A stretch of DNA of 59,512 nucleotides from Alicyclobacillus contaminans DSM 17975 (GTDB lineage: Bacteria > Bacillota > Bacilli > Alicyclobacillales > Alicyclobacillaceae): NCBI RefSeq assembly GCF_000429525.1, contig NZ_AUCA01000021.1:1-59512 (forward strand), read 5' to 3'. Of the stretch, positions 4,090-25,204 are shown piece after piece; position 1 is the stretch's first letter; every line of letters begins with the position of its first letter. The notes beneath the pieces are model-generated. The model was not told the origin of the DNA and made no database searches. It saw nothing but the letters and a program-made list of their open reading frames with translations. A program made the position numbers and the translations under genes.

Positions 4090-4170
4090 AACTCATCCTC
4101 CTGTAACGAATCCACGGGCGGACCTGAACCGGCGCATTACCATCGTCCACATCCGTCCACGGGCTCATAT

Positions 4171-6825
4171 TCACTTGGCATCATACCAGGTGCCTCCCGC
4201 ATGAATGTCCACCTGCAGCGGCACGCTCAGCGCCATTGCATTCTCCATGTTGTCGCGCACCAAATCGGCCAGGGACTCCCGCTCCGCTTCCGGGCACTCA
4301 AAAATCAACTCATCGTGCACCTGAAGGAGCATGCGAGCCTGGAGGTCGGAACGCCGCAGCGCTTGATCAATATGCACCATGGCCAATTTGATGATGTCGG
4401 CGGCAGAACCCTGAATCGGCGTGTTCATGGCCGTTCGTTCCGCGAAACTCCTCAGGTTGAAATTTCGGCTGTGGATATCCGGTAAGTACCGGCGCCGATT
4501 CAACAGCGTGGTGACGTATCCCTGTCTACGCGCGGTTTCCACCACTTCTTCCATGTATCGGGCCACGCCCGGAAACTTGGCGAAATAGTCGCTGATGAAC
4601 TTCGCGGCCTCCGCTCGTGAGATGCCGAGATTCTGCGATAGGCCGTAGTCGCTGATGCCGTACACAATGCCAAAGTTGACCGCCTTGGCCTGACGGCGCA
4701 TCAGCGGGGTCACTTCATCCAAAGGCACGCCGAACACCGTGGCGGCTGTGCTCGTATGAATGTCCTGGTTGTTGCGAAACGCGTCAATCAGCGCTTCATC
4801 CCCGGATAGATGAGCGAGAATGCGCAGTTCAATCTGCGAATAGTCCGCCGACAAGATCACCCAGTCGTCATAGGAAGGTTCGAACACGCGCCGCAGTTTC
4901 CGACCTTCCTCCATACGGATGGGGATGTTCTGCAGGTTGGGCTCCGTGCTCGACAACCTGCCGGTGGCGGTGAGCGCCTGATGGAAACGGGTGTGCACGC
5001 GCTCCGTGTCGGGACGAACCACTTTCAGCAGCCCTTCTACGTAGGTGGACTGCAGCTTGCCCAATTGCCGATACTCGAGAATCTTTTCCACAATCTCGTG
5101 GTAAGGAGCCAGTTTCTCAAGGACATCCGCGCTGGTCGAATAGCCCGTCTTCGTCTTTTTCAGCGCGGGCAGCGCCAACTTGTCAAACAGGATCTCGCCC
5201 AGCTGCTTTGGGGAGTTGATGTTGAATTCTGTCCCGGCCAGCGCGTAGATCTCTTGTGTCAATTGTTGGAGCTGCGCGGACAACTCCTGCCCATACGCTT
5301 TCAACTTGTCCGTGTTCACGCGAAATCCGAGCAATTCCATGCGCGCGAGGCAGTACTCAAGCGGAATTTCCACGCGATAACACAGGTCATCCTGCTCCTG
5401 CGCCGACAACGCGTTGCCGAGATGCGCTTTCAACTCCGGCAGACAAGTCGCGAATCGCGCCAGGGATTCGGCGTAGTCCGGATCGCCAATCCGTGGGATG
5501 GACATGTGCCGCTGCAATTCACGCTGCACAATGTCGGCCAACGAAGACTCGCCATCACTTGGATTGAGCAGGTAGCCCGCCACCATGACGTCGAACCACG
5601 TACCATCCTCCGGCAGTGTGATGCCGTGCCCGTCGAGAAGGACAATCAACTGCTTCAGGTCGAAAACGACCTTCTCCAAATCGGACGACCAGAGGTCGCG
5701 CAGGTGCGTGACTGTCAGTTCATCGCCCAGCACCACCACCGCAGCTTGCCCCTTGCAGCCAAGGGCAAATCCCAACAGGTTGGCAGTATGGTAATCCTCA
5801 CTGTCGCAGATGGGCAAAACACCGATGGGATCTGCGGCCCGGCGAAGAAAGTCGGTCAAGGCGCCGGCGGTATTGATGCGCTGCACCGGCGTCCGTTCCT
5901 CCGGCGACGGCGGAGCGGCCTCTCCCCCTTCGTCCTGCGGCAAACGCTCCAGGAGAGACTTGAATCCCAATTTTTGAAACACCTTGCGAACCGGCTCAAC
6001 GGGCAGTCCACGATACGTCAAGTCGTCGAGCGTCCAAACGATGGGCGCATTGCGTTCAATGGTCGCCAATCGTTTCGAGACGAGCGCCAAATCCCGATGC
6101 TCGGACAGCCGCTCACGCAGCTTGGCCCCCGAGACTTCGTCCACGTGTTGCAGGACTTCTTCGACCGTGGGATAGGCCTGCAGCAGCTTCACCGCCGTTT
6201 TTTCGCCAACACCGGGCACTCCGGGAATATTGTCCGATGTATCTCCCATCAGGCCCTTCAAATCGATGATTTGAGCGGGAGACAGCCCATACCGCTCGCG
6301 CACCGCCGCTTCGGTGTAGTAGTCCACCTCGGTAATCCCCTTGCGGGTCAGCGCCGCGTGCACGTGATCCGACACGAGTTGCAGGAGGTCTTTGTCCCCG
6401 GACACAATCAGGGTGGGGATGCCCGCTTCATCCGCGACCCTGGACAAGGTGCCGATGATGTCATCCGCCTCGAAATTCGCCAGTTCCAATGCAGGAATTC
6501 CGAACGCAGCCAGCACCTCTTTCACCAGCGGAAACTGCTCCGACAACTCTGGTGGCGTCTTCTGCCGCGTTCCCTTGTATTCTTCGAACACCTCGTGGCG
6601 AAACGTCCGTTTCCCCGCGTCAAAAGCGACGGCCACGTGGGTGGGTTTCTCGTCTTGCAACATGCGCAGCAGCATCTGCGTAAAGCCGAAAACGGCGTTG
6701 GTGTAATGCCCTTCCGCATTGGAGAGCGGAGGCAGTGCAAAGAACGCCCGATATGTGATGCTGTTGCCATCAATGAGCATCAACTTGACAGTCGACTGGT
6801 CTTGATTGGACATAGGGCACCCCAT
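4171..6825 (-). CDS. polA: DNA polymerase I (probably without proofreading)
   Basis: The 884-residue family A polymerase fills gaps in repair and Okazaki fragment processing. Order: N-terminal 5'-3' flap nuclease (about 1-300; LMLIDGNSITYRAFFAL, FEADDIIGT, DNIPGVPGVG), a 3'-5' exonuclease-like domain (about 310-480), then the polymerase with motif A DYSQIELR, motif B RRQAKAVNFGIVYG and motif C QVHDELIFE. The exonuclease acidic motif (FDxE in E. coli) reads ICDSEDYH and the other metal ligands are not evident, as in the Bacillus enzymes that lack proofreading. The start is uncertain: ATG 6825 has no clear ribosome site, and ATG 6813 has only a weak GGGGTG. Confidence 0.96.
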   Translation of the reverse strand: MGCPMSNQDQSTVKLMLIDGNSITYRAFFALPPLSNAEGHYTNAVFGFTQMLLRMLQDEKPTHVAVAFDAGKRTFRHEVFEEYKGTRQKTPPELSEQFPLVKEVLAAFGIPALELANFEADDIIGTLSRVADEAGIPTLIVSGDKDLLQLVSDHVHAALTRKGITEVDYYTEAAVRERYGLSPAQIIDLKGLMGDTSDNIPGVPGVGEKTAVKLLQAYPTVEEVLQHVDEVSGAKLRERLSEHRDLALVSKRLATIERNAPIVWTLDDLTYRGLPVEPVRKVFQKLGFKSLLERLPQDEGGEAAPPSPEERTPVQRINTAGALTDFLRRAADPIGVLPICDSEDYHTANLLGFALGCKGQAAVVVLGDELTVTHLRDLWSSDLEKVVFDLKQLIVLLDGHGITLPEDGTWFDVMVAGYLLNPSDGESSLADIVQRELQRHMSIPRIGDPDYAESLARFATCLPELKAHLGNALSAQEQDDLCYRVEIPLEYCLARMELLGFRVNTDKLKAYGQELSAQLQQLTQEIYALAGTEFNINSPKQLGEILFDKLALPALKKTKTGYSTSADVLEKLAPYHEIVEKILEYRQLGKLQSTYVEGLLKVVRPDTERVHTRFHQALTATGRLSSTEPNLQNIPIRMEEGRKLRRVFEPSYDDWVILSADYSQIELRILAHLSGDEALIDAFRNNQDIHTSTAATVFGVPLDEVTPLMRRQAKAVNFGIVYGISDYGLSQNLGISRAEAAKFISDYFAKFPGVARYMEEVVETARRQGYVTTLLNRRRYLPDIHSRNFNLRSFAERTAMNTPIQGSAADIIKLAMVHIDQALRRSDLQARMLLQVHDELIFECPEAERESLADLVRDNMENAMALSVPLQVDIHAGGTWYDAK

Positions 6826-22431: not shown

Positions 22432-23328
22432 GTGGACACACGTTCCGCTCGCAGCAAACTGTCTGTTGATTACTGGATGGCCCCGACCGGTCATCCACTG
22501 TGGACATTTTTCGTCCGCATCGCAATCATTCTGATTGGTTGTTTTGTCGGCGCCGTATCCGTCAACAGTTTTCTGGTGCCCGCACATATTCTCGCCGGCG
22601 GCATCACCGGTTTTGCGCAGATGATCACTCACTTTACCCACTGGCCGCTCGGCACACTCTATTTCGCCTTCAATATTCCGCTGTTCATCCTCGGCTGGCG
22701 AGACCTCGGCAAGCGGTTCATTCTGCTCACCGGCATCGGCATCCTCGGCTTTTCTCTGTTCACCGACGTCGTGCATATTCATTTCAACCTTCCATCCGAT
22801 CCGCTCTTGGTCGCGCTCTACGGCGGCGTCCTCGGCGGTGTATCGAGCGGACTCATCCTACGCGTCGGCGGCAGCGCCGGCGGTACGGACATCCTCAGCC
22901 TGGCCCTCAATCGCCGAACGGGCAAAAGCGTCGGCTCCGTCTCTTTCGCCATCAACGTGGTCATTGTCCTTCTGTCCATGACAGTGTTCGGCGTCGCCGC
23001 AGGTTTGTATACTCTGGTGTCCATGTACGCGACGTCACGCGTGATGAACGCGCTCATGCATTATCAAAACCGCAAAACCGCGATGATTGTGAGCACCAAA
23101 GCGGACGCCATCGCCGAAGCCATCGGCCGGCACCTCAACCGGGGCTGCACGTTCATCGAGGGTTCCGGTGGGTATACCCGCTCCCCGCTCGGCGTCCTGA
23201 TGTGCGCCTTGACCAGCATTGAGGTCGGCGAACTGAAGGCCCTGTGCAGTGCGGTGGATCCGAAGGCATTCGTCATCATTCTCGACACGACGGAAGTGTA
23301 CGGCCATTTCCGCAACCTGACATCCTAA
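22432..23328 (+). CDS. YitT-family membrane protein with C-terminal DUF2179
   Basis: 298 residues from GTG 22432, with AAAGGAG eleven bases upstream; the frame continues upstream but reads as unlikely protein. Five to six membrane segments (about 20-190; IAIILIGCFVGAVSVNSFLVPAHILAGGITG split over two helices), with the family motif GGSAGGTDILSLALNR. A soluble C-terminal ferredoxin-like domain follows (IAEAIGRHLNRGCTFIEG). Function is unknown; distant relatives are considered transporters. It is divergent from ytoI. Confidence 0.88.
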   Translation: MDTRSARSKLSVDYWMAPTGHPLWTFFVRIAIILIGCFVGAVSVNSFLVPAHILAGGITGFAQMITHFTHWPLGTLYFAFNIPLFILGWRDLGKRFILLTGIGILGFSLFTDVVHIHFNLPSDPLLVALYGGVLGGVSSGLILRVGGSAGGTDILSLALNRRTGKSVGSVSFAINVVIVLLSMTVFGVAAGLYTLVSMYATSRVMNALMHYQNRKTAMIVSTKADAIAEAIGRHLNRGCTFIEGSGGYTRSPLGVLMCALTSIEVGELKALCSAVDPKAFVIILDTTEVYGHFRNLTS

Positions 23329-23476
23329 CGGCAAAGTGCGGGGAAGTGAGGGCGCATCGGTATATTTCGAGACTCTTTGGTCCATACCAAAAGCGTAGGA
23401 AGTTTGCACATCCGCAGGCGGCCATGGCGTTCATGCAGTACTGTGGATGCGCGAAATAGAACGAGGAGGATTTCCG

Positions 23477-23695
23477 ATGCGCTATATCCCTTCCACTTTA
23501 GTGATTGCCATTTTATCGCTCATTCTCGCGTGTTGGCCCGGTGTCCAGTCGTGGGCGGAGACGGGGCCTGTCCAACACTTCTTGACCCACTGGCTGTATC
23601 TGTTGGCCGGCGCCATGGTGGGACTGCAGACAGCCCGCTGGGCTCATGGACAATTGGCGCCCCAGACCTTGGATGAAGGGGGTGTCAGTTCATGA
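23477..23695 (+). CDS. Small membrane protein with an HxxxH motif (72 aa)
   Basis: GAGGAGG precedes ATG 23477. The protein has an N-terminal signal-anchor-like segment (about 4-20), then QHFLTHWLYLLAGAMVGLQ, a second hydrophobic helix opening with His-x3-His. The stop overlaps the next start (ATGA). I do not recognise the family with certainty; the layout resembles one half of a DUF1404-like integral membrane protein. The next gene encodes a matching half, so they probably form a complex. Confidence 0.7.
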   Translation: MRYIPSTLVIAILSLILACWPGVQSWAETGPVQHFLTHWLYLLAGAMVGLQTARWAHGQLAPQTLDEGGVSS

Positions 23696-23907
23696 AGCGG
23701 ACTATCGGACAAGCTTCCCTGCTCTGCTATTTGGGCGCCGCACTCCTCATCATGTGCTACTTCCCCGGACTGCAGGAGAGCACGGAGTCCATTCGATTCC
23801 TGCATGCGCTCTGGCATGTCGCGCTGTTTGTCGGAGCCGCGTGCCTCGTGTACGGCATCGAAACACTGCGCAGTTACGCGCGGCGTTACCGGCGCCTCAT
23901 TCAGTAA
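23692..23907 (+). CDS. Small membrane protein with a second HxxxH motif (71 aa)
   Basis: ATG 23692 overlaps the preceding stop by four bases. A first hydrophobic helix (about 7-24) is followed by FLHALWHVALFVGAACLVYG, another helix with His-x3-His at its start, then a basic tail SYARRYRRL. The parallel with the upstream protein suggests two homologous halves of one four-helix membrane unit, possibly binding haem or metal through the four histidines. That last step is inference. Confidence 0.7.
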   Translation: MKRTIGQASLLCYLGAALLIMCYFPGLQESTESIRFLHALWHVALFVGAACLVYGIETLRSYARRYRRLIQ

Positions 23908-23932
23908 ACGCACGTGCTCCGCATCACCCGCG

Positions 23933-23969
23933 AGCGAGGGTCCTGTGGTACACCACACGGACCCTCGCT
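23933..23969 (+). terminator. Long hairpin after the HxxxH pair
   Basis: An 11-base outer stem (23933-23943 with 23959-23969) continues into an inner TGTGGT/ACCACA stem, 25 bases after the second gene. A short T-rich stretch (cacgtttt) follows. It likely ends the two-gene transcript. Confidence 0.65.
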
Positions 23970-24070
23970 TCACGTTTTCGGCAAAGATGACCGAATGCCG
24001 ACCCTCAGATCAGCCCCGGCGCCTCCGAAACTATGAAATGGATGTTGGAGATGCAAGGGAGGAGAAGCCA

Positions 24071-24349
24071 GTGAAGCGACGGATTTGCGCAGCATGGATA
24101 CCAGCCATGACCGGATTGATCTTGGCCACCGCCTGCGGTCACCCGGCTGCCGCGCCTACGCCAACCCCTTCGCCGGCGACAGCAACGAACGCTCCGTCGC
24201 GGTCAGGGTCACAGACGCCTCCACCTGCGCCGACGTCCATGGCACACACCCACGCACAGCATCCATCCACTGCCGCTGCCGACAGCGCACGGAAATCAGC
24301 ACAGAACAACATGAATCAATTGATGAACGTCATCCAGGCGCTGCACTAG
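24071..24349 (+). CDS. Putative lipoprotein, Pro/Thr/Ala- and His-rich (92 aa)
   Basis: Start GTG 24071 with GGGAGGAG upstream. A signal peptide (KRRICAAWIPAMTGLILATAC) ends in a plausible lipobox with Cys at about residue 22. The mature part is a Pro/Thr/Ser linker, then HTHAQHP and a short amphipathic end NNMNQLMNVIQALH. It would be tethered to the outer face of the membrane. Family unknown. The ending resembles FFQALH in the next protein. The histidine cluster could bind metal, but that is speculative. Confidence 0.65.
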   Translation: MKRRICAAWIPAMTGLILATACGHPAAAPTPTPSPATATNAPSRSGSQTPPPAPTSMAHTHAQHPSTAAADSARKSAQNNMNQLMNVIQALH

Positions 24350-24412
24350 CATTCGATGGATGCATTTGCACGCGGCGTGTGCCGCAGACAGCATCAGCAA
24401 GGAGGGTACATC

Positions 24413-25204
24413 ATGAAATCCATCACTCGTACAATCTCCGCACTCGCGTTGGGCGCAAGTCTGACCGTCCCCACAGTGTTCAGCAACGGCGTGGTGTACG
24501 CGGATGAGCTGCATGGGAACGCCCACGTGAACATCTCCGGATGCGCGACGGCAAAGGGCGCTTCGAAAGCCGATGTGGAGCAGTTTTTCCAAGCGCTTCA
24601 CATGAAATTTGCCAAGGGCCACGCACCGGAAAATACTACCTCCCACCATGCGAAAGCCAGTGACACAACGAAAGGCAAACCGGCGCAAGCGCAGCAAAGC
24701 GCGGCAGTTCAGGCGGAGTGGACGCAGTTGCAGAAGGCGCTGCAGCAGTTGCATCAGGACCTGACCACTGAACAAGCGGCGAAGCAGGCGCTTGTCAAAG
24801 CCGGTCAAGCGTACGTGCAGGTCATGAAACAGGCGCTGTCGAGCGGCAACGCGGCATTGATTCAAAGCGCCAATCAGGAGATTCAGTCCGTTCTTTCGCA
24901 ATTAAAGCAAGCCCTGAGCGAGCAGCGTGCAGAGGACAGCGCAGTGCAAACCTCCACAACGGAAGGTCAAAAGGGAGACCTCACCCGCGCCATCCAAGCC
25001 ATCGAAGCAGCGGACGCCCGGGTCAAGCAAAAAACCGCAGCCATTCAGTCCGCCACGACAAAGCTGCAAACATTGACTCAATCGTTGGAGCATCAGTTGT
25101 CCAGTACCGGGTCCGACAGCAGCGGGAACACGAGCAGCAACACAGGCGCCACCACGTCCGTGGACAACACCGGCAATGTCACCGTCCAGGTGAGCAACGG
25201 CTGA
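24413..25204 (+). CDS. Secreted Gln/Ala-rich coiled-coil protein (263 aa)
   Basis: AAGGAGG lies eight bases before ATG 24413. A signal peptide with AxA-type site (VVYADE, cleavage about residue 31) leads to a mature protein with one cysteine (ISGCATAKG), His-rich patches (GHAPENTTSHH), and a long helical region (about 95-235) with Gln/Ala/Leu/Lys heptads. The Ser/Gly/Thr/Asn tail is disordered. No enzyme motif is seen. It may be a cell-surface or envelope-stress protein. Family not recognised. Confidence 0.7.
   Translation: MKSITRTISALALGASLTVPTVFSNGVVYADELHGNAHVNISGCATAKGASKADVEQFFQALHMKFAKGHAPENTTSHHAKASDTTKGKPAQAQQSAAVQAEWTQLQKALQQLHQDLTTEQAAKQALVKAGQAYVQVMKQALSSGNAALIQSANQEIQSVLSQLKQALSEQRAEDSAVQTSTTEGQKGDLTRAIQAIEAADARVKQKTAAIQSATTKLQTLTQSLEHQLSSTGSDSSGNTSSNTGATTSVDNTGNVTVQVSNG

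Follow-up and report, generated by a model that had tools for sequence, protein, structure and literature searches.

Two small overlapping genes, here called A and B, form one unit that is carried side by side in nearly all the genomes of its bacterial family that were examined, and their products, judged by profile-profile comparison, are homologous to each other, a relationship newly seen here. Both lie in the window, the whole stretch of 59,512 nucleotides that was analysed (contig NZ_AUCA01000021.1 of Alicyclobacillus contaminans DSM 17975, from a genome of 3.27 Mb). Together they make a 143-residue, two-gene membrane unit with four histidines, which would offer a small target for work on metal binding by His-box hairpins. 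The explanation that best accounts for the whole, to which about an even chance is given, is a pair of duplicated hairpins that share a four-histidine metal site and handle copper or another metal for respiration.

The features of the locus are collected in Table 1. The coordinates, overlap, sizes, strand and ribosome sites recorded in the initial annotation were all confirmed, as were its H-x3-H motifs, HFLTH at residues 34-38 of A and HALWH at residues 38-42 of B. Purine-rich sites precede the starts of all four genes, each of which is on the plus strand. The likely ribosome-binding site of B forms part of the codons for the conserved GVSS tail of A, and may be the reason why that tail is conserved. 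The hairpin that had been noted near 23933 was found again at 23931-23970 (-32.8 kcal/mol, z -5.7, with none of 200 shuffles as good); it is absent from the listing of the consensus terminator scan. No match over the gathering threshold was obtained with Rfam between 22000 and 26600. A yitT gene (PF02588) is located directly upstream of A at 22432-23328 on the same strand, and co-transcription with A and B is possible.

Table 1. Positions of the genes and signals of the locus in the window.
Feature	Positions	Strand	Description or basis
Likely ribosome-binding site of A (gaggagga)	23463..23470	+	sequence
Gene A	23477..23695	+	72 aa, two-helix membrane hairpin; AlphaFold model
Likely ribosome-binding site of B (gggggtg), inside the 3' end of A	23678..23684	+	sequence
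Gene B	23692..23907	+	71 aa, two-helix membrane hairpin; A homologue; ATGA overlap with A
Strong terminator-like hairpin between A/B and C/D	~23931..23970	+	folding, z -5.7
Gene C	24071..24349	+	92-aa low-complexity lipoprotein, GTG start
Gene D	24413..25204	+	263-aa secreted coiled-coil protein

Homologues were searched for in 61 genomes including the source genome, which yielded A in 33 and B in 31, every B being directly 3' of its A; all matches fell within the source family (33 of 37 genomes) and none in the 24 relatives outside it. A second search of the family, employing a profile of 20 joined A+B pairs, located the two genes next to each other in 37 of 41 genomes, the remaining four being two of genus g2 and two of genus g13; a match in G002 (E 0.04, in a 493-aa frame) was left out of this count. 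In a sample of 398 genomes of the phylum, for which no more than ten candidates per genome were scored so that distant relatives can be missed, the only match was the source genome itself (0 of the 397 others, which include some of the 24 outside relatives). A and B overlap by ATGA or GTGA in 37 of 37 pairs (33 of 33 loci read, and 4 of 4 further ones from coordinates) and are separate proteins of 71-80 and 63-73 aa, respectively, in 33 genomes. The surroundings of the pair, with neighbouring families named by Pfam and some of the 33 loci cut by contig ends, include dnaE at 31 of 33 loci, a CBS/DRTGG gene at 32, yitT at 29 and a cysK-type gene at 31, and as they are largely kept the pair has been inherited in place. 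No metal, oxidase or redox gene adjoins it. Values of dN/dS were 0.06-0.31 for A (8 usable of 11 pairs) and 0.03-0.32 for B (9 usable of 11 pairs), leaving out the A values of both pairs that involve G024 and the saturated comparisons that gave no ratio (A and B of G000/G001, and B of G018/G024). All usable pairs are well below 1, and A and B are thus under purifying selection, which together with conservation across the family argues that the pair is more than a chance arrangement. Among the publications listed by literature searches, none deals with it, judged by titles and abstract openings.

The A and B profiles were aligned by hhalign over 52 columns (E 8.6e-6, probability 83%), free of gaps through the proline and the H-x3-H motif and with one two-residue gap later. 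Segment-wise shuffling of the columns, repeated 400 times, never reached the score of 32.5 (mean 11.6, sd 2.7, maximum 23.5), and with the B profile reversed the score was 11.2. The proposal of the initial annotation that A and B are two halves of one unit was thereby upheld by their occurrence together in the family, their shared overlap and their mutual homology. Adjacent, overlapping genes with homologous products were found, as in a tandem-duplicated split pair, and the homology suggests that A and B probably form a heterodimer that arose by tandem duplication and has a four-histidine metal site at the outer face. In small multidrug resistance pairs of the EbrAB/YkkCD type, too, neighbouring genes encode small membrane proteins that are homologous and for which heterodimers are expected; these have four helices each and are not known to have His boxes, and no small multidrug resistance family is among the A/B matches listed.

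Residues W20, P21, W26, H34, H38, G45 and G49 of A and Y13, P25, H42 and R60 of B are invariant in 33 of 33 sequences, and H38 of B is kept in 32 of 33. Across the 37 pairs both histidines of A and the second of B are always present and the first of B is present in 36, the four further pairs having all four; conservation of the histidines among homologues, set beforehand as a check on the initial annotation, was accordingly observed. The only change in the 37 pairs is to glutamate in G007 (FEAMWH; L091 6766-6984). Glutamate is also a metal ligand, and the replacement would fit a metal ion or a proton site better than a ligand of haem. A proline stands 13 residues ahead of the first histidine in 33 of 33 A and 22 of 33 B sequences, and 11 residues ahead in the other 11 B sequences. 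Each chain modelled alone by AlphaFold gave a helical hairpin whose loop contains a short helix (mean pLDDT 85.8 for A and 80.5 for B). Counts of positive residues suggest that both ends of each hairpin are inside and the His-box loop outside: for B, mean K+R is 0.9 in the loop and 2.2 and 3.2 at the two ends, and for A, for which the indication is less clear, 0.0 in the loop and 0.9 and 1.4 at the ends. In A the C-terminal tail is acidic, with D+E at 3.7 and K+R at 1.4, which makes its placing inside less sure. The joined A+B profile matched no solved structure by sequence at E values up to 10, and Foldseek returned nothing at E <= 0.001 for either hairpin, as expected for a bare hairpin.

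B was aligned without gaps to a profile of 41 CtaG sequences over 36 columns covering helices 4-5, with the proline and H-x3-H in register (score 29.6; 0 of 400 shuffles as good), and the P value, also given as E, went from 0.0012 with 9 CtaG sequences to 1.4e-4 with 41. A alone scored 19.6, which 7 of 400 shuffles equalled and which is no clear match; it aligned to CtaG helices 4-5, not 2-3, and more weakly still to the isolated 2-3 hairpin (11.9). The two hairpins of CtaG did not match each other (8.7). The pattern Pro-x12-H-x3-H is found in both hairpins of only 15 of the 41 CtaG sequences (18 with a relaxed pattern), and in 33 of 33 A and 22 of 33 B sequences with the one glutamate counted. 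With loop bounds placed on one sequence, K+R over the 41 CtaG sequences is 2.6-3.6 for the loops TM1-2, 3-4 and 5-6 and 0.27 for each of TM2-3 and TM4-5. CtaG and A/B would have in common two hairpins with their ends inside by charge, an outer loop, and histidines at the start of the helix that leads back inwards. However, CtaG consists of 6-9 helices in one chain (PMC8239418), whereas A/B has 2+2 helices in two genes, and CtaG has an invariant outer-side aspartate (B. subtilis D249; PMC8239418), whereas A/B contains no invariant aspartate. The joined A+B sequence reached 15.9 bits against PF09678, under the Pfam cut-off of 27.7, and Pfam Caa3_CtaG matches were obtained for 6 of 20 A/B members (best E 7e-4). 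As family score, helix number and invariant aspartate all differ, membership of CtaG was rejected, and a likeness in layout and motif is claimed instead. Moreover, B scores equally against the zinc motif of haemolysin III (29.5 over 17 columns with a profile of 15 sequences, HAxWH in register), so that convergence towards a His helix may account for its match to CtaG. A scored 16.0 against the haemolysin III profile, over 10 columns elsewhere.

These results can be assembled into the following scheme. A single two-helix hairpin would have been duplicated in tandem to give A and B, as their homology indicates, and the two would probably be made together by coupled translation, to which the conserved ATGA/GTGA overlap points. 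From the charge counts, the termini of each hairpin would be cytoplasmic and its short acidic loop would lie outside, the helix after the loop opening with H-x3-H. The pair would most likely pack as a four-helix bundle with pseudo-twofold symmetry, and the H-x3-H motifs of the two halves would together make up a single four-histidine metal site near the outer face. Tentatively, the likeliest job of such a site might be the handling, on the outer side of the membrane, of copper or some other transition metal in support of the respiratory chain. The model for that job is the proposal for Caa3_CtaG, whose candidate copper ligands are likewise on the outer side according to PMC8239418, which also states that no structure and no paralog of caa3_CtaG was known as of 2021; in PMC9145763, the conserved histidines and one aspartate of CtaG are said to be possible metal ligands.

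Among guesses at the function, copper handling for respiration is put first on two grounds. Of the two resemblances, the one to CtaG, with its outer-side candidate copper ligands (PMC8239418, PMC9145763 and PMC13344008), is the longer, and 25 of 33 A/B genomes give no match to the PF09678 CtaG profile whereas all 37 carry at least one COX1. The 33 are those searched without the genomes of the four further pairs, and incomplete assemblies are counted among the 25 (e.g. G014 at 62% and G010 at 85%). A stronger version makes A/B the first minimal CtaG relative: the copper-binding core of four helices would be divided between two homologous genes and would do the work of CtaG where, as in many genomes of the Alicyclobacillus family, haem-copper oxidases are present and no CtaG is detectable. 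This version is considered improbable; a relation to CtaG, if real, would reduce an oxidase assembly factor to its functional core. The B. subtilis CtaG is needed for caa3 and not for aa3 (PMC9145763), so its absence need not be filled. In addition, COX1 is present and A/B absent in G002, G013 and G023, the first two of which are also without a CtaG match, and oxidases therefore occur without both. Separately, CtaG was seen within ~6 kb of a lower-scoring COX1 (352-363 bits, against ~500-544 for the main type) at seven places in the family (G007:C122, G009:C102, G018:C19, two in G021:C1, G024:C1 and G027:C133), which suggests that CtaG may go with a particular type of oxidase.

Another candidate is a small b-type cytochrome, with haem bound by histidines on two helices that face each other and serving electron transfer at or across the membrane; in its favour are the four conserved histidines, close to where two membrane helices begin, and the haem-copper oxidases of the host bacteria. 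This reading is judged improbable: two histidines only four residues apart in a single helix (i and i+4) are at odds with b561, in which the two haems are widely spaced, one histidine is replaced by glutamate in G007, no redox gene adjoins the pair, and no cytochrome b or b561 family is among the joined-pair or NCBIfam matches or the best 25 of 41 Pfam families. The A/B family is known for acidophiles, and the restriction of the genes to that one family (37 of 41 genomes, against 0 of 24 outside relatives and 0 of 397 in the phylum sample), together with a change from histidine to glutamate that would retain a proton site, would also be in keeping with outer-face histidines that serve an acid-adapted membrane as pH sensor or as proton site, their protonation altering the packing of the hairpins or their action on a partner. 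The exact H-x3-H in both halves would, however, resemble metal geometry, and there is no known partner, so that a pH sensor is thought unlikely.

The haemolysin III score of B, as high as that against CtaG, would also be compatible with A/B being part of a CREST-type zinc membrane enzyme (ceramidase or PAQR/haemolysin III) with an HxxxH helix. Ceramidase is the commonest weak Pfam match (11 of 20 members, best E 2.4e-4), and an NCBIfam hlyIII match was obtained for 1 of 20 members (E 0.0015). Haemolysin III and PAQR proteins (PF03006) have seven helices and the PAQR site is on the cytoplasmic side. In common with them B has the HAxWH helix, but its match is short at 17 residues and A has none there, the other motifs of a seven-helix protein cannot fit in four helices, and the A/B site would be on the outer side by charge. 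The Pfam HlyIII profile itself matched 3 of 20 members with a best E of 0.034, and reversed A/B sequences (10 of 20 members) reach a Pfam E of 4.3e-5. A zinc enzyme of this type is consequently regarded as very unlikely, and the four-histidine metal site remains the preferred reading.

The same reversed-sequence control places DUF1404 and the other single-sequence Pfam and NCBIfam matches in the background, and all of them were rejected. A relation to DUF1404 (PF07185), suggested by the initial annotation, did not hold up: compared with A/B as single sequences, it gave 16.6 bits (E 0.0067, below the cut-off of 29.4) for the joined A+B over residues 12-131. Its profile found nothing in the 61 genomes of relatives; the family is present in Sulfolobus acidocaldarius, and the literature search retrieved no publication on it. 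DUF420/CtaM (PF04238) is similarly a small polytopic membrane protein tied to oxidase copper (PMC13344008 and PMC9145763). It did not match the A/B profiles (12.1 and 12.7), and occurs in 35 of 37 family genomes, including G002, G013 and G023, which are without A/B.

Genes C and D were followed across the same loci with a scan of the 3.6 kb that follow B for genes that have a ribosome site and whose products have a hydrophobic start; single misses are possible, as the D gene of G022 was missed by the scan and found otherwise. By reading, C has a lipobox (LATAC) and the motif HTHAQHP, and D has a signal peptide and a coiled coil. A C-type lipoprotein follows B in 6 of 33 loci and a D-type secreted protein in 17 of 33; 11 of these 17 D proteins are homologous to that of the window at E <= 1e-3, and the other 6 (genus g5) were assigned by position and likeness. 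The C-type proteins have a conserved C-terminal ending, AQ-x2-VNQLVNAINQLH, and the segment of D common to its relatives is at about residues 106-226. Of the sequence features singled out in the initial annotation, HTHAQHP is indeed present in C but occurs in the window's C only, among 8 C sequences, and the QALH segment of D is absent from the other D sequences examined; neither feature carries weight.

A single envelope system of all four genes, with C and D serving A/B from outside, would agree with the gene order in the window, where both come after A/B, and with the D-type genes at 17 of 33 loci. It is nonetheless highly improbable: by the scan, A/B has no C at 27 of 33 loci and no D at 16, two C-D pairs of G016 and D genes of G008 and G015 show no linkage to A/B, and a strong hairpin stands between A/B and C/D. 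The functional link of four genes put forward initially was rejected on co-occurrence. As C and D are often missing at A/B and C-D pairs are found elsewhere, the two look like a recurrent two-gene secreted module, apart from A/B, and the four genes noted in the window would then represent two modules, not one. In G016 a gene for a C-like lipoprotein is directly upstream of one for a D-like secreted coiled-coil protein, twice and away from A/B (L243, G016:C1:199500-208500, at 4096-5708; and L244, G016:C1:3773500-3782500, at 4468-5944). D genes are located elsewhere in the genome in G008 and G015 as well, and that of G008 (L242, G008:C1:1187000-1196500, at 4288-5820) encodes a 511-aa relative in which the coiled-coil domain of D is matched twice.
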